The notes beneath the pieces are model-generated. The model saw only the letters and a program-made list of their open reading frames with translations, ran no database searches and was not told the DNA's origin. A stretch of 64,000 nucleotides of DNA from assembly GCF_000420385.1 (NCBI RefSeq), contig NZ_ATUV01000002.1, forward strand, positions 186,001 through 250,000, written 5' to 3'. Numbering within the stretch: position 1 is the first letter of the stretch; each line of letters opens with the position of its first letter. Shown here piece by piece: positions 6,281-29,756 of this stretch. Source of the DNA: Hippea alviniae EP5-r (GTDB lineage Bacteria; Campylobacterota_A; Desulfurellia; Desulfurellales; Hippeaceae). Both the position numbers and the translations under genes were made by a program.

Positions 6281-6415
6281 ATGAAAAGGACATTTCAACC
6301 ACACAATAAACCAAGAAAGAGAACTCACGGTTTTAGGGCAAGAATGAAAACGGCTGGTGGAAGAAAGGTTCTATCCAGAAGGAGAGCAAAGGGCAGAAAG
6401 AGATTGACAGTCTAA
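6281..6415 (+). CDS. rpmH: 50S ribosomal protein bL34
   Basis: Complete 44-residue L34: starts [19 protein letters not shown] and ends GRKRLTV, with the usual very basic C-terminus. AAAAGGAGG precedes the ATG by eight bases. It heads the conserved block rpmH-rnpA-yidD-yidC-mnmE-mnmG-rsmG. Confidence 0.98.
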
Positions 6416-6744
6416 AGAAGCAGTTTAAATCTCTAAAGTCTAACGAGTTTAAGGAAGTATATACAAAAGGGAAAAAGATAGTAACGTCGTTTTATGTATT
6501 ATTCATTTTAAAGGGCAAAGAAGAGCTTAAAGTTGGCGTCGTTGCAAGTAAAAAAATAGGTAAAGCCGTTAAAAGAAACAGAGCAAAACGAAGATTGAGA
6601 GAGATTGTAAGGTTGTCTCAACCGTTTTTGAGTAAAAATATGTGGCTTGTGCTTGTGGCACGAAAGGGCATACTGAAGGCTGACTTTTGGCAAGCTCAAA
6701 AGCTGTTTCTAAATAAGATAAAAAATGAGACAGATAGTGTCTAA
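6403..6744 (+). CDS. rnpA: Ribonuclease P protein component, apparent ATT start
   Basis: Protein subunit of RNase P, which assists the catalytic RNA in trimming tRNA 5' ends. The signature [14 protein letters not shown] is near residue 50, with [13 protein letters not shown] just before it. The reading frame is open from 6337 but contains no ATG, GTG or TTG before the conserved N-terminal part. The best start is ATT at 6403, preceded by AAAGGG at proper distance and giving (M)[15 protein letters not shown], 113 residues. It overlaps rpmH by 13 bases. A rare AUU start suggests IF3-sensitive, low-level expression (inference). Confidence 0.9.
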
Positions 6745-9899: not shown

Positions 9900-11786
9900 A
9901 TGATTTACCCTAAGAATTACGATGTGATAGTTGTCGGTGGTGGGCATGCAGGTATAGAAGCGGCTTTGATTAATGCAAGATTAGGACTCAATACCCTACT
10001 TTTAACCATATATCTTGACTCAATTGGACAGATGAGCTGCAACCCTGCTATCGGCGGTTTGGCAAAGGGACATCTTGTTAAAGAAGTGGATATCTTTGGC
10101 GGTGAGATGGCAAGAAATATAGACGAGACAGGTTTGCAGTTTAAGATACTCAACAAAAGCAAAGGTCCTGCCGTCTGGTCAAGCAGAGCTCAAGCTGACA
10201 TGACTGCATACAGACTTAGAATGAAATATACTCTTGAAAGACAAAAAAATTTAGACATAAAGCAAGAGATGGCAGATGAAGTGCTTGTTGATGGCGACAG
10301 GGTTAAAGGTATAAGAACAAACTTAGGCAACGAGTATTATGCAAATGCCGTTGTCATAACAACAGGTACATTTATGAAGGGTAAAATCTTTATAGGTTTA
10401 AACACATACTCAGCAGGAAGAGCATGGGAACCGCCAAGCGAACATCTATCAGACAGCTTAAGAAAGCTGGGTTTAAGGGTTGGAAGATTAAAAACAGGCA
10501 CAACTCCAAGACTCGATGCAAGAACAATAGATTTTGATGCCTTAATTCCGCAACCGGGCGACGATGAGCCTGTGCCATTTTCATTCAGAACCAAAGAGTT
10601 AAACAGGCCAAACATTCCCTGTTATTTAACATACACAAACGAAAAGACACACGAGATAATTTTAAAAAATTTAGACCAATCGCCACTATACAGCGGCATA
10701 GTTGAATCCGTTGGCCCAAGATACTGCCCATCCATTGAAGACAAAGTCGTTAAATTTTTCGAAAAAAAACAGCACCAGATATTCTTAGAGCCACAAGACG
10801 AAAAATCAACTGAAATATATGCAGACGGCCTTCACACATCTATGAGCTATGAAGTCCAGCTAAACTTCTTACGCACAATCAAAGGGCTTGAGAAAGTTGA
10901 GATAATGAGACCGGGTTATGCAATTGAATACGACTTCGTTGACCCAACGCAACTAAAACACACACTCGAGACAAAAAAGATAAAAGGACTCTTTTTAGCT
11001 GGTCAAATCAACGGCACAAGTGGATACGAAGAAGCAGCAGCTCAAGGTATCGTTGCAGGCATAAATGCAGCATTCTTCTTACTTGAGAAAGAACCGTTCA
11101 TACTAAGAAGAGATGAAGCATACACGGGTGTTTTGATTGATGACCTTGTAACAAAAGGCACAAAAGAGCCCTATAGAATGTTCACATCCCGTGCAGAATA
11201 TAGGCTCATCTTAAGAGAAGACAACACACATCTAAGGTTGGCAGAAAAATCCTTCAAAGCGGGCCTTTTGTCAAAAGACGAATACGAGATGATAGCAGAA
11301 CAGAAGAGAAAAATAGAAGAGACAATTAAAAAACTGAAAACAACATTCATATTCCCAACTGACGAGACAAACAAGAAACTAAAGGAACTTGGAACAGAAA
11401 TCATAAAAACCAAAACAGATTTAGCAAAGCTCCTGCGCAGAACAGAGCTTAATTACGACAAATTGAGAGAGCTAAAACCAGAACTTGAAGAACTCGACAG
11501 TTATATAAAGCAGGAAGTTGAGATAGACATAAAATACGAAGGATATCTGACACTTCAAAAACAACAGATAGAAAAGTTTAAAAAATACGAGAACATGAAG
11601 ATACCAGAAGATTTCGACTATACAAAAGTTGGTGGTCTTTCAAACGAAGTGCGCGGCAAATTAATGGAAGTAAGACCAACTTCTATAGGGCAGGCAATGA
11701 GAATATCTGGCGTAACACCTGCTGCTATATCCATATTAATGGTCTATCTAAAGAAGCAGAATGAGAGATTTAAAGACTCGGCTTGA
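9900..11786 (+). CDS. mnmG: tRNA uridine-5-carboxymethylaminomethyl modification enzyme MnmG
   Basis: FAD protein of 628 residues, partner of MnmE. FAD-binding [12 protein letters not shown] is near residue 12, with [16 protein letters not shown] near 47 and [10 protein letters not shown] near 197. [16 protein letters not shown] near 368 and the C-terminal helical domain with [22 protein letters not shown] are as expected. GAAGGAGAAG precedes the ATG. Confidence 0.97.
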
Positions 11787-12333
11787 GAAGGCTTTTAAAA
11801 GGGTTGATATACCAAAACCAGAAAGCCTACAGCCCTTCGAAGAATACATAAACACTCTAACTCAGTGGAACAGAAGTATAGCCCTTATCTCAAAAAGGGA
11901 AGAGAACATCGTCAATCATCTCGTTGCACCATCTCTTCTATTTTTTAAAGTATTTAAAAAAGATAACTTAAAAATCATAGACATAGGTTCTGGTGCTGGT
12001 TTTCCAGCTGTAATTCTTAAAATTTACAAGCCAACATTAAGTATAACGATGATTGAACCAAACCACAAAAAAACGGCGTTTTTAAGATATATCTGCTCAA
12101 AACTCAATCTAAAATGCAGCATAATAGATAAACGATTAGAAGAGATAGATGAAGAGTTAATATGTGATGTTATCACTGCTCGTGCTATCAATCTAAGAAA
12201 TATGATTGATGAGATAAAAAAGATAAGAGCTGGTCATCTCTTTTATCTTACATCGAAGGATAACCAGCTCGATTTTGACCTAAAACAGGAGATTCTCTTT
12301 AAAAACCACTGTGCTAAGATTTACACCCTATAA
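11761..12333 (+). CDS. rsmG: 16S rRNA m7G527 methyltransferase RsmG
   Basis: Methyltransferase of 190 residues with SAM-binding [13 protein letters not shown] near residue 77 and [15 protein letters not shown] near 103, both typical of RsmG/GidB. Its start lies 26 bases inside mnmG. It converges on the XRE-cupin gene, overlapping its end by six bases. In many genomes parA/parB follow rsmG, but they do not here. Confidence 0.93.
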
Positions 12334-12870
12334 AACTGGCGGGCTTACAACCCAGATTGTCTCAACATCAACATCACCAACATTTCTATATGAGTGCGGC
12401 TGAGTAGATGAGAAGTAAAAGCTATCACCAGGACCCAACACCCTAACCTGGTCTCCAACTTTAAGTTCGAGTTTACCCTTCAGAATGTATCCGAACTCTT
12501 CGCCTGCGTGCCTGTGTTCACCTTTGGAATCACAACCCACTGGAACAACCTTATAGAGTGGCTCCATGGCTTTGTTGGAAATCTTAGCAACAAGTAATTC
12601 CGCATATACATGGCTACCTGGATATATAATTTGGGTTCTTTCTTCCTTCGTTAAGAATATCTTGTCATTTGACTGCTCATCACTCAACAAATCTCTAACC
12701 TGAACATCCAAGGCCTGAGCAATCTTTTGCAAAACGCTTATAGACGGAACAGCTTTGCCCGTCTCTATCTGAGAAATATAGGCATCAGTACAACCTACCT
12801 TTTCAGCCAAAGCTTTCAATGTTAACCCTTGCTTTTTTCTGTAAGATTTTATTTTCTCAGCCATGTTCAT
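12328..12870 (-). CDS. XRE-family regulator with C-terminal cupin domain
   Basis: Transcription factor of 180 residues. The N-terminal helix-turn-helix is at residues 7-60 (LTLKALAEKVGCTDAYISQIETGKAVPSI). The cupin_2 sensor domain is at about 105-175, with HRHAGEEFGYILKGKLEL and the later histidine in PHSYRN. The gene lies just downstream of the acetate carrier in the same orientation and has its own promoter, so control of acetate or organic-acid metabolism is a reasonable guess, not shown by sequence. Confidence 0.9.
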   Translation of the reverse strand: MNMAEKIKSYRKKQGLTLKALAEKVGCTDAYISQIETGKAVPSISVLQKIAQALDVQVRDLLSDEQSNDKIFLTKEERTQIIYPGSHVYAELLVAKISNKAMEPLYKVVPVGCDSKGEHRHAGEEFGYILKGKLELKVGDQVRVLGPGDSFYFSSTQPHSYRNVGDVDVETIWVVSPPVL

Positions 12871-12889
12871 CAGCCTAAATCCTCCCTAA

Positions 12890-12905
12890 AAAATTAATTA
12901 ATTTT
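12890..12905. promoter_or_regulatory. 16-bp perfect palindrome, candidate operator
   Basis: AAAATTAATTAATTTT, a perfect palindrome 20 bp upstream of the XRE-cupin start and downstream of its candidate promoter. Its position suits autoregulation, but AT-rich palindromes arise easily in this genome. Confidence 0.4.
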
Positions 12906-12915
12906 CACGGGCATA

Positions 12916-12944
12916 AGCATAAAAAAACAGGGGCTTTTTGTCAA
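12916..12944 (-). promoter_or_regulatory. Candidate promoter of the XRE-cupin gene
   Basis: On the minus strand: TTGACA (12944-12939), 17-bp spacer, TATGCT (12921-12916). The -35 hexamer lies inside the terminator hairpin loop of the upstream acetate-carrier gene, so termination and initiation share the same DNA. Confidence 0.55.
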
Positions 12945-17546: not shown

Positions 17547-18263
17547 TCAATAGATAACCCTTCTTAAAAATAGCCCGTTAGCTGGTGCCTTAAAATACGG
17601 CACATCTTCAAAAATTATATTACCAGCACTATCCTTTTGCAAGTCGTTTGAAGAGAAAAATACACTCAAACCGACCATATTCCTAACCATTCCGCGCAAA
17701 AATGCATTAGCTCTAACATGAAAAACAACAAAATTCCTAATCCTTTTTACCCTAAAAAAATGCACTTCTCTTACACAATTCTTATCATTTGGTTCATTTG
17801 CAACAAACCTAAAATCCCTTCTGCCAACAAACAGGTGGGTCATCTGCCTAATCTTTTCAACATTTACATCCCTTCTATGCCAAACATAATTTCTCAAAAA
17901 GGGCGGCAAAACTTCACCCGTAAAGATAAAATAGAGATACTCTCGTGCTTTAGCTAAGTATCTTGAATGAAAATCATCAGAAACAGAAAATACTTTCAAT
18001 ATGCGTATGTCTTTATCAAGCAGGGAATTCAAGGCTTTTTTTAGCGACTCGTTATCTATAAAAAACGGCAGGCTAAAGTCTATAACTTGGCCAAAGGCAT
18101 GGACTCTGCTGTCTGTCCTGCCAGCATAGTTTATTCTTATCTCCTGTTTAAAGATAACAGAAAGGGCTCTCTCTATTTCGCCCTGAACGGTTCTATCGTT
18201 TGGCTGAATTTGAAAACCTGCATAATTTGTGCCGTCGTATGCAACAATGGCTGCTGCTTTTAT
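17547..18263 (-). CDS. truA: tRNA pseudouridine synthase TruA, apparent ATA start
   Basis: Enzyme of 238 residues forming pseudouridine at tRNA positions 38-40. VAYDGTNYAGFQIQ near residue 7 and the catalytic aspartate in YAGRTDSRVHAFGQV near 47 are visible. Conserved C-terminal blocks include RANAFLRGMVRNMVG near 180. No ATG, GTG or TTG precedes these motifs in frame. The only well-placed start is ATA at 18263, seven bases after a perfect GGGAGGGAG, and it overlaps the tldD stop as ATAA. An N-terminally truncated start at a TTG (18032) would lose the active site. Rare AUA initiation is inferred. Confidence 0.9.
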   Translation of the reverse strand: MKAAAIVAYDGTNYAGFQIQPNDRTVQGEIERALSVIFKQEIRINYAGRTDSRVHAFGQVIDFSLPFFIDNESLKKALNSLLDKDIRILKVFSVSDDFHSRYLAKAREYLYFIFTGEVLPPFLRNYVWHRRDVNVEKIRQMTHLFVGRRDFRFVANEPNDKNCVREVHFFRVKRIRNFVVFHVRANAFLRGMVRNMVGLSVFFSSNDLQKDSAGNIIFEDVPYFKAPANGLFLRRVIY

Positions 18264-19624
18264 AGGCTGCTCCCTCCCACCATTATGGATGGGATTCTGA
18301 CTGTAGGCTCACCGTCTGTCACAGGCACGCCCTGACCGGATTTGCCACATGTTCCAACTTCAACGCCAAAATCGTTGCCAACCATATCTATCTCTTCAAG
18401 CACCTTAGGGCCATTGCCAATGAGCGTTGCCCCTCTGACCATGTGCTTGATTTTACCCTTTTCTATCAGGTATCCTTCGGCAACTTCAAAGACAAAATCG
18501 CCCGTTATCGGATTAACCTGCCCACCACCCATCCTTTTAACAAGCAAGCCTTTATCAACAGATGCAACTATATCGTCTGGGTTGTCTTCGCCGGGCAGAA
18601 TATAGGTATTCGACATTCTAACTATCGGTGGATAGCGATAGGATTCTCTTCTTGAATTACCTGTTGATGATTTATCTGCAACCTTTGCATACATCTTATC
18701 AAACATATAGTTCTTCAAAATTCCATTTTCTATCAAAACTGTGTTTTCAGACTTTGTGCCTTCGTCATCGTAATAGAACGAACCGCGCATTTTTGGTTTT
18801 GTCGCATCATCAACAACGGTAATCTTTTCGTTTGCCACCTTCTGATTCAACCTATCTTTATAAACACTCATCGACTCATAAACCAGGTCGGCTTCAAGTC
18901 CATGACCCACAGCTTCATGAATCATCGTCCCGCCAGCTTCAGAAGACAGAACAACCGTCATCTTTTCTGGTTTCAGCGCTGGAGAGTCAAGCAACTCAAC
19001 GAGCTTTTCTGTCAACTCTTCGGCAATCTTTGAAAAATCAAATTTTTCAAAGTATTCAAACCCACCAAGCACACCGTAAGGCTTTCTTATTGTCTGAACT
19101 ATATCATTTTTTTTAGCTGTAATCTCAAAAAACAGAACTGTGTATATACGTTTTTCCTTCAAAAGATTACCCGTTTCGTTTAAAATCTGAATCTCTTTAA
19201 GTCTATCGGAAAATGTCATACTGACCTGTTTTACCTCTTCTTTTTTATACGCAACTTGGCATACTGTATCGTAAATCTCTTTAATCTTTTCAATCGGCGG
19301 CTTGTAATCGTTATAAGAATCAATCATCTGTAAACCTGTTTCGGATACAACAAAACTACCTTCTTTTAGATTTGCAACATCGACAAGGAATTTTGCCATA
19401 TTATAGATATTCTCTTCTGTCGTATCGTTGGATGATGAGTAAAGCGTGCTCAAGCCCTTAACGAGCCTTACGCCAACACCACTATCTCTGCCAACCTTAA
19501 TATTCTCTATCTTTTTGTTTTTGGCTTCTATTAAGCGAACAAAAGAGTCTTCAATATATATGTCAAAAAAGTCAGAATTGCTATTTTTCAGCAAACCAAA
19601 AGCATCTTCATACATTTCTATCAC
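18260..19624 (-). CDS. tldD: TldD-family metalloprotease
   Basis: Protein of 454 residues with the TldD zinc motif HEAVGHGLEAD near residue 240. The later RESYRYPPIVRMSNTYILPGEDNPDDI, EVGTCGKSGQGVPVTDGEPTVRI and terminal MVGGSSL are family typical. TldD/TldE pairs process peptides and antitoxins; no tldE is seen here. It starts directly after the ppsA terminator hairpin and ends at the truA start. Confidence 0.95.
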   Translation of the reverse strand: MIEMYEDAFGLLKNSNSDFFDIYIEDSFVRLIEAKNKKIENIKVGRDSGVGVRLVKGLSTLYSSSNDTTEENIYNMAKFLVDVANLKEGSFVVSETGLQMIDSYNDYKPPIEKIKEIYDTVCQVAYKKEEVKQVSMTFSDRLKEIQILNETGNLLKEKRIYTVLFFEITAKKNDIVQTIRKPYGVLGGFEYFEKFDFSKIAEELTEKLVELLDSPALKPEKMTVVLSSEAGGTMIHEAVGHGLEADLVYESMSVYKDRLNQKVANEKITVVDDATKPKMRGSFYYDDEGTKSENTVLIENGILKNYMFDKMYAKVADKSSTGNSRRESYRYPPIVRMSNTYILPGEDNPDDIVASVDKGLLVKRMGGGQVNPITGDFVFEVAEGYLIEKGKIKHMVRGATLIGNGPKVLEEIDMVGNDFGVEVGTCGKSGQGVPVTDGEPTVRIPSIMVGGSSL

Positions 19625-19654: not shown

Positions 19655-22048
19655 TTACCTTCCCAGCTTCTCTTCAAGCTTTTTAATATTCACGATTGTC
19701 TGCATGACGCTGTCAGGGTTTAAGCTCATAGAGTCAATACCCTGCTCAACCAAGAATTCGGCAAAATCAGGAAAATCAGATGGACCCTGTCCGCAGATAC
19801 CGACAGGCTTGCCGTGTTTATGAGCTTTTTCTATCAACATGGATATCATTCTTTTAACCGCTATATGGCGTTCATCAAACAGGTGAGCTACAAGTCCTGA
19901 GTCTCTGTCTATTCCAAGTGTCAACTGCGTTAAGTCATTTGAACCTATCGAGAAACCGTCAAAAATCTCAGCAAACTCATCTGCACATATTACATTGCTT
20001 GGAATTTCAGCCATCACATATATCTCAAGGCCATTCTCACCCTGAACAAGGCCGTTTTTCTTCATCTCTTCGATTACTTTAACGCCTTCTTCCGGAGTCC
20101 TGCAGAACGGAATCATTAAAGCGACATTAGTTAGGCCGAATTCGTCTCTAACCTTCTTCATAGCCTTACACTCAAGAGCAAAACCTTCTCTGTAAGCGTC
20201 TGAATAGTATCTGGAAGCCCCTCTAAATCCTATCATTGGGTTTTCTTCTTCTGGTTCAAACTCCTGCCCACCTATAAGGTTAGCATACTCATTTGTCTTA
20301 AAATCGCTCATTCTGACGAGTATCTGGTTTGGATAAACGCTTGCAGCAAGCATGGCAACACCGTATGCGAGTTTATCTATGAAATACTGCGGTTTGTCGT
20401 CGTATCCTTTTGTAAGCTCTGCAATTATCTCTTTTGCTTTTTTATCTTCAAGCTCGTCAAAATGAATTAAAGCCAAAGGATGCACCTGAATGAAAGAGCT
20501 TATTATAAACTCCATTCTTGCCAGGCCTATACCGTCATTTGGAATACCCGCCATCTGAAATGCTATTGCGGGATTACCAAGATTCATCTTTATCTGAGTT
20601 TTTGGCTTTTCAAGCTTTGATAAATCGATTCTTTCAACTTCATAGTCGAGTTTTCCTTCGTAAACATACCCTATCTCACCTTCCGCACAGGAAATGGTAA
20701 TCTCTTGTCCTGTCTGTAATTTTTCCGTCGCATCGCCACAGCCAACAATAGCAGGAACACCAAGCTCTCTTGATATAATCGCAGCATGACAGGTTCTTCC
20801 GCCTCTATTCGTGATTATTGCTGCGGCTTTTTTCATTATTGGTTCCCAATCAGGGTCTGTCATATCCGTAACAAGAATTTCACCATCCTTAAATCTATCC
20901 ATCTCTTCTGGTGTATCTATAACATGAACCTTGCCCGTTGCTATCTTGCTTCCAACGGCTATACCTTCGACAAGAACTTTGCTTCTCTCTTTAAGTTTGT
21001 AAGTTTCAAGGACGCTTAAGTTTCTTCTTGATTGGACGGTTTCTGGTCTCGCTTGAACGACAAAAAGTTGACCTGTTTTGCCGTCCTTTGCCCATTCTAT
21101 ATCCATTGGCGTATATCTGCCGTTTCTTTTGGTATAGTGATTCTCTATCTTCACAGCCCACCTTGCAAGCGTAAGAACATCATCATCGCTCAAAGAGTAT
21201 TTAAAGCGCTCTTCTTCTGTTGTTTCAACATCCTTTATGCCGCCGTTTTCGTCATATACGGCTTTTGTTAGCTTCGAACCCAATTTTTTGTTTATAATCG
21301 CTTTATAGCCTTTCTCAAGCGTAGGTTTGAATACAATAAACTCATCAGGATTCACTTTGCCTGCAACAATATTCTCACCCAATCCGTAACTTGCATTTAT
21401 AACAACAACTTTGTCAAAACCACTCTCTGTATCTATTGAGAACATAACGCCACTTGCGGCTAAATCACTTCTTGCCATCTTCTGCACACAAATAGACAAG
21501 CCAACCTTGAAATGGTCAAAACCTTTATCATGCCTGTAGGATGTGGCTCTATCTGTAAAGATTGATGCATAACAGCTTTTCACATAGTGAACGACATTAT
21601 CAATGCCTTTGACATTTAGATAAGTATCTTGCTGGCCTGCAAACGAAGCGTCAGGTAAATCTTCCGCCGTTGCTGAGCTTCTTACAGCAACATCACTTTC
21701 ATCTTCGCCATAATACTCACTCAACTTTTTGTAGGCTTCCTTTATCTCTTCGTACAAATCAGCTGGCAATTCTGCATTAAAAATAAGGTCTCTTGCGGCT
21801 TTTGTTTTCTCTCTCAAACTGTTAATATCATGAGTATCTAAATCTCTTAAAACTTCGCCAATCTTCTCTCTTAAGTTGTTATAGTCAAGTAAGTACCAAT
21901 AAGAGTCAGCAGTCAAAGCAAAGCCGTATGGAACATTGACGCCTTCATCCTTAAGCTCTTTAATCATCTCACCCAAAGATGCATTTTTACCGCCAACAAT
22001 GTGCACATCGTCTGCACCAATCTCGTCAAGCCACTTGACATACTTCAT
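19655..22048 (-). CDS. ppsA: Phosphoenolpyruvate synthase
   Basis: Enzyme of 797 residues converting pyruvate and ATP to PEP, AMP and phosphate. The N-terminal ATP-binding domain starts LDEIGADDVHIVGGKNASLGEM. The phosphorylated histidine is in GGRTCHAAIISRELGVPAIVG near residue 420, and the C-terminal PEP barrel ends with GICGQGPSDFPDFAEFLVEQGIDSMSLNPD. It probably drives gluconeogenesis from acetate-derived pyruvate. Own promoter and terminator are visible. Confidence 0.97.
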   Translation of the reverse strand: MKYVKWLDEIGADDVHIVGGKNASLGEMIKELKDEGVNVPYGFALTADSYWYLLDYNNLREKIGEVLRDLDTHDINSLREKTKAARDLIFNAELPADLYEEIKEAYKKLSEYYGEDESDVAVRSSATAEDLPDASFAGQQDTYLNVKGIDNVVHYVKSCYASIFTDRATSYRHDKGFDHFKVGLSICVQKMARSDLAASGVMFSIDTESGFDKVVVINASYGLGENIVAGKVNPDEFIVFKPTLEKGYKAIINKKLGSKLTKAVYDENGGIKDVETTEEERFKYSLSDDDVLTLARWAVKIENHYTKRNGRYTPMDIEWAKDGKTGQLFVVQARPETVQSRRNLSVLETYKLKERSKVLVEGIAVGSKIATGKVHVIDTPEEMDRFKDGEILVTDMTDPDWEPIMKKAAAIITNRGGRTCHAAIISRELGVPAIVGCGDATEKLQTGQEITISCAEGEIGYVYEGKLDYEVERIDLSKLEKPKTQIKMNLGNPAIAFQMAGIPNDGIGLARMEFIISSFIQVHPLALIHFDELEDKKAKEIIAELTKGYDDKPQYFIDKLAYGVAMLAASVYPNQILVRMSDFKTNEYANLIGGQEFEPEEENPMIGFRGASRYYSDAYREGFALECKAMKKVRDEFGLTNVALMIPFCRTPEEGVKVIEEMKKNGLVQGENGLEIYVMAEIPSNVICADEFAEIFDGFSIGSNDLTQLTLGIDRDSGLVAHLFDERHIAVKRMISMLIEKAHKHGKPVGICGQGPSDFPDFAEFLVEQGIDSMSLNPDSVMQTIVNIKKLEEKLGR

Positions 22049-27718: not shown

Positions 27719-28692
27719 AAGCAAGGATTTTGGTCACTGGCAGCAGTGGGCAACTTGGGGGAGAATTGCATAGGTTAATTATGAATCATGAGATAGGAGT
27801 TATAAATGGAGAAAAGAGTAATTCAACACTCAAAACTCAAAATTCAAAATTCTACTTCACTGACATTGACGAGTTAGATATCACAAAAGAAGACAAAATC
27901 AAGGAATTTATAGATAAGAGCAATGTAAACGTGATAATAAACTGTGCTGCATATACGGCTGTTGATAAGGCTGAAGAAGAGAAAGAGTTAGCAGACTTAA
28001 TAAATCATAAAGCTGTTGAATACCTTGCAAAAGTCTCAAAGGAGTATGGTATATTTCTTATTCACATCTCAACAGACTATGTGTTTGATGGCAAAAACTA
28101 TAGACCATACACAGAAGATGACAAAACCAACCCACAGAGTGTTTATGGATTGACAAAACTAAAAGGTGAAGAAGCATTAATTAACTCAGAAGCAAAAGGA
28201 GTCATAATAAGAACATCTTGGTTATGCTCTTCGTTTGGCCATAACTTTGTCAAAACGATGCTAAAGCTTGCACAAACAAGAAAGGAGCTAAATGTTGTCT
28301 ATGACCAGGTAGGAACACCAACTTATGCAAGAGACCTTGCATCAGCCCTGCTGACAATTATGAATTATGAATTGGGAATTATGAACGAAAAGGATGGTAA
28401 TGTAATTCAAAACTCAACACCTAACCTTCATAACTCTGTAAGGGTTTACCATTACAGCAACGAAGGTGTTTGTAGTTGGTATGATTTTGCAAAAGCAATA
28501 TTTGAAATAAAAGGTATAGACATAAGAGTTAATCCAATAGAAACAAAGGATTATCCCACACCAGCAAAAAGGCCACACTATAGTGTGCTAAATAAAGCAA
28601 AAATAAAGAGAGATTTTGGTATTGAGATACCCTATTGGAGAGACAGTTTGAAGAGAATGCTAAGTGAAACAAAAGGAGACAGCAATGAATAA
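27712..28692 (+). CDS. rmlD: dTDP-4-dehydrorhamnose reductase with two in-frame inserts
   Basis: SDR reductase of 326 residues, longer than the usual 285-300. LVTGSSGQLGGEL at residue 7, NCAAYTAVDKAEEE near 82, STDYVFDG near 122, YGLTKLKGE near 145 and RTSWLCSSFGHNFVKTML near 165 are conserved. The extra length comes from two low-complexity inserts (about residues 22-47 and 215-242) encoded by degenerate repeats. The first replaces the loop after the first helix; the second precedes HYSNEGVCSWYDFA. Both keep frame. Overlaps rmlB by eight bases. Confidence 0.93.
   Translation: MNEARILVTGSSGQLGGELHRLIMNHEIGVINGEKSNSTLKTQNSKFYFTDIDELDITKEDKIKEFIDKSNVNVIINCAAYTAVDKAEEEKELADLINHKAVEYLAKVSKEYGIFLIHISTDYVFDGKNYRPYTEDDKTNPQSVYGLTKLKGEEALINSEAKGVIIRTSWLCSSFGHNFVKTMLKLAQTRKELNVVYDQVGTPTYARDLASALLTIMNYELGIMNEKDGNVIQNSTPNLHNSVRVYHYSNEGVCSWYDFAKAIFEIKGIDIRVNPIETKDYPTPAKRPHYSVLNKAKIKRDFGIEIPYWRDSLKRMLSETKGDSNE
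27775..27852 (+). repeat. Inverted-arm degenerate repeat element 1 inside rmlD
   Basis: Left arm 27775-27810 of TTATGAATCATGAG type, short spacer, right arm 27821-27852 of CAAAACTCAAAATTCAAAATTC type. The right arm reverse-complements to GAATTTTGAATTTTGAG, so the arms are imperfect inverted repeats. In frame with rmlD. Confidence 0.68.
28354..28438 (+). repeat. Inverted-arm degenerate repeat element 2 inside rmlD
   Basis: Left arm 28354-28387 (ATTATGAATTATGAATTGGG type), spacer, right arm 28404-28438 (AATTCAAAACTCAACACC type). Same layout and size as element 1 in the same gene, also in frame. Confidence 0.7.
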
Positions 28693-29756
28693 TTTAATTT
28701 CTATCCTAATAACTGGCGGTGCAGGATTTATAGGCAGCAACTTTATTCCTTATTTCTTAGAGAAACATCCTGAGTATAATGTAATAAATTTAGACTTACT
28801 TACTTACTTATGCAGGAAATCTTGAGAATTTAAAAGAGGTAGAAAGCAATCCAAGATATAAATTTATAAGAGGTGATATCTGTAATCGAGAGCTTGTCGA
28901 GTACATATTTAAAGAGTTTGATATTCAGGGCGTAATTCACTTTGCAGCAGAGTCTCATGTTGACAACTCAATTAAAAATCCTGATGTATTTATAAAGACA
29001 AATGTTCATGGCACATTTACACTGTTGGATGTGGCTTATAAACATTGGATGAAAGAGCCCTTTGAATATAAAGACAGATACAAAGAGTGCAGATTTCACC
29101 ACATATCAACGGATGAAGTCTATGGCTCACTCCCTAACGACCCAAGTAAACTGTTTACGGAAAAAACTCCTTATGCCCCAAATTCTCCTTATTCTGCAAG
29201 CAAAGCAGCAAGCGATATGATTGCAAGAAGTTATTTTAAGACCTATGGTTTAAATGTTGTAGTAACGAACTGCTCAAACAATTATGGCCCAAAACAGCAT
29301 GATGAAAAACTAATCCCGAACATAATAAGAAATGCACTTCAAGGAAAACCTATTCCCATATACGGAGACGGTAAGAATATAAGAGACTGGCTCTATGTTC
29401 TTGACCATTGCAAGGGCATAGACCTTGTATTCCACAAAGGAGAAGCAGGTGAAACCTACAACATAGGCGGAAGAAACGAGAGAGAAAATATATACATAGC
29501 AGAAAAGATATGTGAAATTTTGGATGAACTATATCCACCTTCTGTCAATTCAGAGCTCAAAACTAAAAATCCAAGACTAAAAAGTTATAAAGAGCTTATA
29601 ACTTTCGTAAAAGACAGACCCGGTCATGACAGAAGATATGCCATAGATGCAAGCAAAATTGAGAATGAGCTTGGGTGGAAGGCAGAAGAAACTTTCGAAA
29701 CCGGAATAAAGAAGACAGTGGAGTGGTATTTGGATAGATATGTTAGGAGAATATAA
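28685..29756 (+). pseudogene. rmlB: dTDP-glucose 4,6-dehydratase, frame broken in a (TTAC)3 tract
   Basis: Reads MNNLISILITGGAGFIGSNF, then NLDLLTYLC and a stop. Removing one TTAC unit from 28796-28807 restores DLLTYAGNLENLKEV and a 355-residue RmlB with NAD motif, SHVDNSI, HISTDEVYG and catalytic YSASK. The whole span is 1072 bases, exactly one four-base unit too long, and no other break is seen. RmlB is needed for every dTDP-6-deoxysugar. A degenerate repeat at 29541-29575 gives the C-terminal low-complexity SVNSELKTKNPRL. Likely phase-variable or recently inactivated. Confidence 0.92.
28796..28807 (+). repeat. (TTAC)3 tetranucleotide tract in rmlB
   Basis: Three TTAC units followed by TTAT. 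Two units would keep the gene in frame; three put it out of frame. Tetranucleotide tracts are classical phase-variation elements, though three units is short. Confidence 0.85.

Follow-up and report, generated by a model that had tools for sequence, protein, structure and literature searches.

The tldD-truA junction and its start codon

The window, i.e., the whole stretch of 64,000 nucleotides that was analyzed, carries tldD and truA on its minus strand, and the two genes overlap. The features at their junction are the following:

17547-18263, minus strand: truA, tRNA pseudouridine synthase, 238 codons plus stop; match to PF01416 (E 2.9e-28), single copy
18260-19624, minus strand: tldD, the upstream partner of truA; open frame with a GTG start, matches to PF19289, PF01523 and PF19290
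18261-18263, minus strand: predicted truA start codon ATA, the only in-frame start candidate that is shared (15/15 family genomes with a match)
18260-18262, minus strand: tldD stop codon TAA, overlapping the ATA as ATAA, read from the sequence (tldD stops in the family: TAA 14, TAG 1, TGA 0; n = 15)
18270-18278, minus strand: GGGAGGGAG, predicted Shine-Dalgarno (SD) sequence of truA inside glycine codons of tldD, based on duplex energy, GGA conservation and the anti-SD at the 16S end

The minus strand reads GTG GGA GGG AGC AGC CTA TAA at the end of tldD and ATA AAA GCA GCA GCC ATT GTT GCA TAC GAC GGC at the start of truA. The four-base overlap ATAA (18263-18260) is composed of the truA ATA (18263-18261) and the tldD TAA (18262-18260). 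The ATA shares its first base with the last tldD codon, in which this base occupies the third position, and the third base of the ATA is the second base of the tldD stop codon. The original prediction had placed the truA start at this ATA and had stated that no standard start exists ahead of the active-site region, and both claims held. In the truA frame, 15 open codons lie between the ATA and an upstream TGA, and none of them is ATG, GTG, TTG or CTG. The earliest in-frame ATG, GTG or TTG is the TTG at codon 78 (18032). The GRTD motif of TruA contains residue 51, an Asp that we take to be the catalytic one. It is located ahead of codon 78, and, thus, no standard start could yield an active TruA. 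A second truA copy was ruled out, because the Pfam model matched one gene alone in the genome, with two domains. A further contig scan yielded only distant TruA relatives, which were left out of the counts.

GGGAGGGAG is located at 18278-18270, six bases ahead of the ATA, and its GGAGG core is nine bases ahead. Its presence was as predicted, but the spacing had been given as seven bases and was measured as six. For the duplex energies the anti-SD was taken from the 16S end of this genome. The duplex with GGGAGGGAG has an energy of -10.7 kcal/mol, which places it among the strongest 18.5% of 389 conserved starts, identified by comparison of this genome with its relative G008. The SD glycine codon of tldD is GGA in 12 of 15 family rows, the top value of the 29 invariant glycine columns. 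The four-base geometry is equal to that of the ATGA stop-start overlap known from translational coupling, which is present at 47 of the 389 conserved standard starts in this genome (counted when the upstream frame had 60 codons or more). In contrast to ATGA coupling, a TAA stop is paired with an AUA start at the truA junction.

Conservation of the truA start among relatives

The comparison was based on a phylum sample of 25 genomes, 24 of which had a truA match. They comprise the own family (f1, 16 genomes), its sister family (f2), which together make up the order (19 genomes), and two class outgroups (f3 and f4). In the own family truA was matched in 15 of 16 genomes, and ATA is present at the homologous codon in all 15; such retention is beyond chance, with the reservation that the 15 rows are related and do not count as independent events. 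In the family genomes as they were read, no standard start precedes the conserved motif. In the sister family truA starts with ATT (3/3), located three bases after the tldD stop without any overlap. In f3 truA starts with ATG (3/3), GGAGG is absent at the corresponding site, and the overlap of the two genes is exactly ATGA, so the earlier likening of ATAA to ATGA coupling was apt. In f4 truA also starts with ATG (3/3) and directly follows a gene other than tldD, and the class outgroups thus have ATG in six genomes overall. By this comparison AUA or AUU was shown to be the only shared candidate for the truA start, and it is kept across the order.

The gene order upstream of truA differs between f4 and this genome. 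In the f4 locus L029 truA is located directly after a PEP-synthase-like gene, and L024 and L025 are similar by DNA. In the window a PEP-synthase-like gene is found at 19655-22048, ahead of tldD, and, therefore, tldD was gained or lost between f4 and this genome.

Another non-standard start further downstream was also considered, i.e., the ATT at codon 6 in this genome, or the TTG (1/3) or CTG (2/3) four codons after the ATT in the sister family. Codon 6 is neither AUN nor NUG across the family, and it is too far from the SD sequence. In addition, the distance from the start to the YDG motif is equal for the AUA of the own family and the ATG of f4 in most rows. We regard such a start as very unlikely.

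Upstream of the ATA, the truA frame has an in-frame stop only one or two codons before it in 12 of 15 genomes of the own family, so that no other upstream start is usable in these genomes. The same stops bear on the possibility that TruA is made as a fusion to TldD by frameshifting or stop readthrough, without a start of its own. In the sister family the truA frame indeed continues in frame after the tldD stop. However, the two frames differ in the own family, the 12 nearby stops leave hardly any space in which a slip could occur, and no slippery heptamer was seen at the tldD/truA junction of this family. No single fusion mechanism covers both families, whereas AUN initiation covers both, and a fusion is highly improbable.

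That re-sequencing might turn the codon into ATG was an objection raised beforehand; it is answered by the ATA in 15 separately assembled genomes. Alternatively, a special initiator tRNA carrying a UAU anticodon might recognize the ATA, but this anticodon is absent among the tRNAs to which ARAGORN gave a name (all but one of the 47 Rfam tRNA matches). The tRNA set is ordinary, with three tRNAs that have a CAU anticodon, one of which has an anticodon stem rich in G-C pairs like that of an initiator. An explanation by sequencing error or by a special initiator is extremely improbable. The ATA is thus well supported as the real truA start, at the level of sequence comparison, and no other reading is compatible with all 15 genomes of the family.

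The overlap also bears signs of selection. All 15 family rows have an A immediately ahead of the tldD stop, 14 of them in a Leu codon (CTA or TTA) and one in a Lys codon (AAA). Among the 105 invariant fourfold-type tldD columns of the same 15 rows none keeps one third base throughout, and the same is true for all 14 invariant leucine columns (0/14); the best comparable column has the same third base in 14 of 15 rows. Against this background of tldD codons, both the SD sequence and the first base of the ATA look selected. TGA, which would turn the truA start into ATG, is not used as tldD stop in any of the 15 family genes, although 31.6% of the genes in this genome (n = 532) and 31.1% of those in G008 (n = 566) have this stop. 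The missing TGA hints at a retained ATA, but it is only suggestive, because the 15 rows are related, and a stop preference could also explain it.

These observations are relevant for the possibility that the ATA is a relic that is tolerated. One G-to-A exchange in an ancestral ATGA would have changed TGA to TAA and ATG to ATA at once, little TruA would be needed, and regulation by IF3 would not be involved. The f3 genomes have ATGA at the same junction, just one base away from ATAA. However, one A-to-G exchange would suffice to bring back ATG and would at the same time give a TGA stop that is usable, and none of the 15 genomes has it; the sister family keeps the ATT in 3/3 without any overlap; and the SD sequence and the first base look selected. 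Together with two further points in its favor that are given below, this origin is conceivable, but on balance rather unlikely.

AUN starts of rnpA and infC and their rarity in the genome

A second gene of the window has an AUN start, as the original prediction had noted for rnpA:

6403-6744, plus strand: rnpA, RNase P protein, start codon ATT at 6403-6405; match to PF00825 (E 3.3e-24), ATT in 16/16
6281-6415, plus strand: rpmH, overlapping the rnpA start by 13 bases; based on open frame, sequence and the measured overlap

rnpA was matched in 16 of the 19 genomes of the order, and the start is ATT in all 16, which corroborates rnpA as a second RNA-processing gene of the window with an AUN start. 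A further scan of rnpA starts gave no row from G060 and G026, and the row of G034 was left out. An in-frame stop is present two codons before the ATT in eight of the 16 genomes. In the outgroups the rnpA start is ATC in f4 (3/3) and ATG in f3 (3/3). The SD sequence of rnpA is ordinary (-4.8 kcal/mol), and the letters of the ATT are partly dictated by the overlapping rpmH. Both points speak against the reading favored below, and the second also speaks for the truA ATA being a relic.

The third gene is infC, which encodes IF3 and is located outside of the window. It starts with ATA behind GGAGGTGA at G000:C1:277301 (locus L168; L223:17301). infC was matched in 17 of the 19 genomes of the order, and the start is ATA in 17/17. 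In f4 it is ATA in the two of three genomes with a match, and in f3 it is ATG (3/3). infC was not found in G004 and G002, where thrS also gave only weak, paralogue-like matches. The thrS-infC stretch is taken to be missing from the available sequences of both genomes, one of which is a single contig, and this is probably a gap in the sequence data.

Taken together, the own and the sister family have AUN starts in truA, rnpA and infC, f3 has ATG in all three genes, and f4 is mixed, a pattern that represents few independent changes. f4 has AUN starts in infC and rnpA beside the ATG of truA, and, thus, the truA start is not strictly tied to the infC start. That f4 has ATG in truA although its infC starts with ATA is the second further point that a tolerated relic would explain.

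The rarity of AUN starts was analyzed in two surveys. In the first, 440 kb of this genome were compared with three relatives, each represented by 400 kb, and 346 genes had a homologue. The genes flagged against at least two relatives were truA, rnpA and one frameshifted gene. The second survey compared about 840 of the 1749 kb of this genome (G000) with 800 of the 1694 kb of G008 and yielded 507 orthologous pairs. The proposed search for genes with ATA or ATT as the only possible start was thus performed on these 507 pairs, and an AUN start was needed by truA, rnpA and infC alone. As parts of the genomes were sampled, this number is a minimum, and the survey detects only genes that lack a standard start near the conserved N-terminus. 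A genome-wide relaxed start choice was ruled out, as three of 507 pairs need AUN.

In about 30 pairs, at least eight aligned residues preceded the first standard start in both genomes, and in eight of these pairs there were at least 18 in both; truA, rnpA and infC are among these eight. Various other candidates were rejected. The second part of prfB and the second half of a ydbH-like gene had been flagged because of frameshifts, the frames C2:2-310 and C1:1606-2010 look non-genic, and for C1:29674-30663 ATG codons align further in. The remaining pairs were judged by eye to be overlaps with the preceding gene.

Three frameshifted genes were observed in the course of this analysis. The main frame of prfB (G000:C1:356406-357452) starts without a standard codon, as expected of a +1 frameshift, which we take to be the known programmed one. 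The gene that we named ydbH-like (L091, about 11602-12942; G000:C2:170709-172942) consists of two frames that meet at an A9 run, which is present in all three genomes (G000, G004 and G008), and its second half is in the -1 frame and has no start. The A9 run is a candidate for programmed slippage. In the window, a broken gene at 28640-29756, named rmlB-like by us, has a frameshift at a TTAC repeat run, and its N-terminal GGAGFIGS part is in a different frame. Phase variation through the repeat, decay of the gene and an assembly error are conceivable causes.

Proposed control of TruA synthesis by IF3

The reading that we favor, and consider probable, is that a weak AUA start within tldD, disfavored by IF3, keeps TruA at a low level. 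tldD and truA would share an mRNA, on which the ordinary initiator tRNA would start TruA synthesis at the AUA (18263-18261). The SD sequence in the last glycine codons of tldD, together with the overlap with the tldD stop, would put ribosomes onto the AUA. Because the third base of the codon would be unpaired with the CAU anticodon, IF3 would discriminate against the complex. TruA would, as a result, be made at a low rate, which would fall as IF3 rises, and infC (AUA) and rnpA (AUU) would form one small set with truA.

Several known systems resemble the proposed one. Start codons without a 3' G are discriminated against by IF3 (PMC4611024), and infC and sigR are repressed by IF3 via non-canonical starts (PMC5472188). 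In Staphylococcus aureus, AUA starts of infC, ccpN and citZ are reported from ribosome profiling (PMC13009471). The same study gives reporter levels of about 10% of AUG for ccpN and citZ (AUA) and cvfC1 (AUU) in poor medium, and of up to 30% for ccpN in rich medium (PMC13009471). By analogy, a reduced translation rate from the truA AUA is likely, and from the precedents in Escherichia coli, Streptomyces and S. aureus we infer that truA may be sensitive to IF3. Reportedly, the AUU start of E. coli pcnB limits the synthesis of an RNA-processing enzyme. As proposed for truA, an RNA enzyme is kept low by an AUN start, but enzyme and codon are different, and we know of no stop-start overlap at pcnB.

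The autoregulation of infC, with AUU in E. coli, AUC in Streptomyces and AUA in S. aureus, combines a conserved AUN start with a strong SD sequence, as is the case for truA, and the infC of the order has AUA like these systems. However, truA is not the IF3 gene, and the proposed control would be that of a target and not a feedback loop. Streptomyces sigR is similar to truA in that it is a non-infC gene with a conserved non-canonical start, an extended SD sequence and an overlooked annotation (PMC5472188). In contrast to truA, which starts with ATA and is known from sequence, sigR starts with GTC and has a demonstrated dependence on IF3. The S. aureus genes ccpN and citZ (AUA) and cvfC1 (AUU) share AUA starts and an extended SD sequence with truA, with conservation in ccpN, but they are not tRNA genes, and the accessible text reports no overlap with an upstream stop (PMC13009471).

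An extended version, that the IF3 of the order governs an AUN regulon of infC, rnpA and truA and that its supply sets the rate of tRNA processing and of anticodon-arm pseudouridylation, is put forward tentatively, as an unlikely though possible further step. That the weak start serves to make tRNA maturation dependent on the amount of IF3 is a guess.

AUA starts as such are already known, while truA as an AUN case and an infC-rnpA-truA set that is kept across an order appear to be new. No precedent for a non-canonical start of truA or rnpA was found in the open-access literature, most subscription papers being outside the scope of the search. Gene callers generally accept just ATG, GTG and TTG, and, therefore, the annotation of truA, rnpA and infC of the order is probably truncated or missing.

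The conserved AUN set, which consists of infC and two tRNA-maturation genes, offers a natural case for studying how far IF3 discrimination reaches beyond infC. The ATAA overlap is a site at which a single base can alter a stop and a start together. The set spans an order of sulfur-metabolizing bacteria, and it suggests that a deliberately weak start may place a few RNA genes of these organisms under IF3 control.
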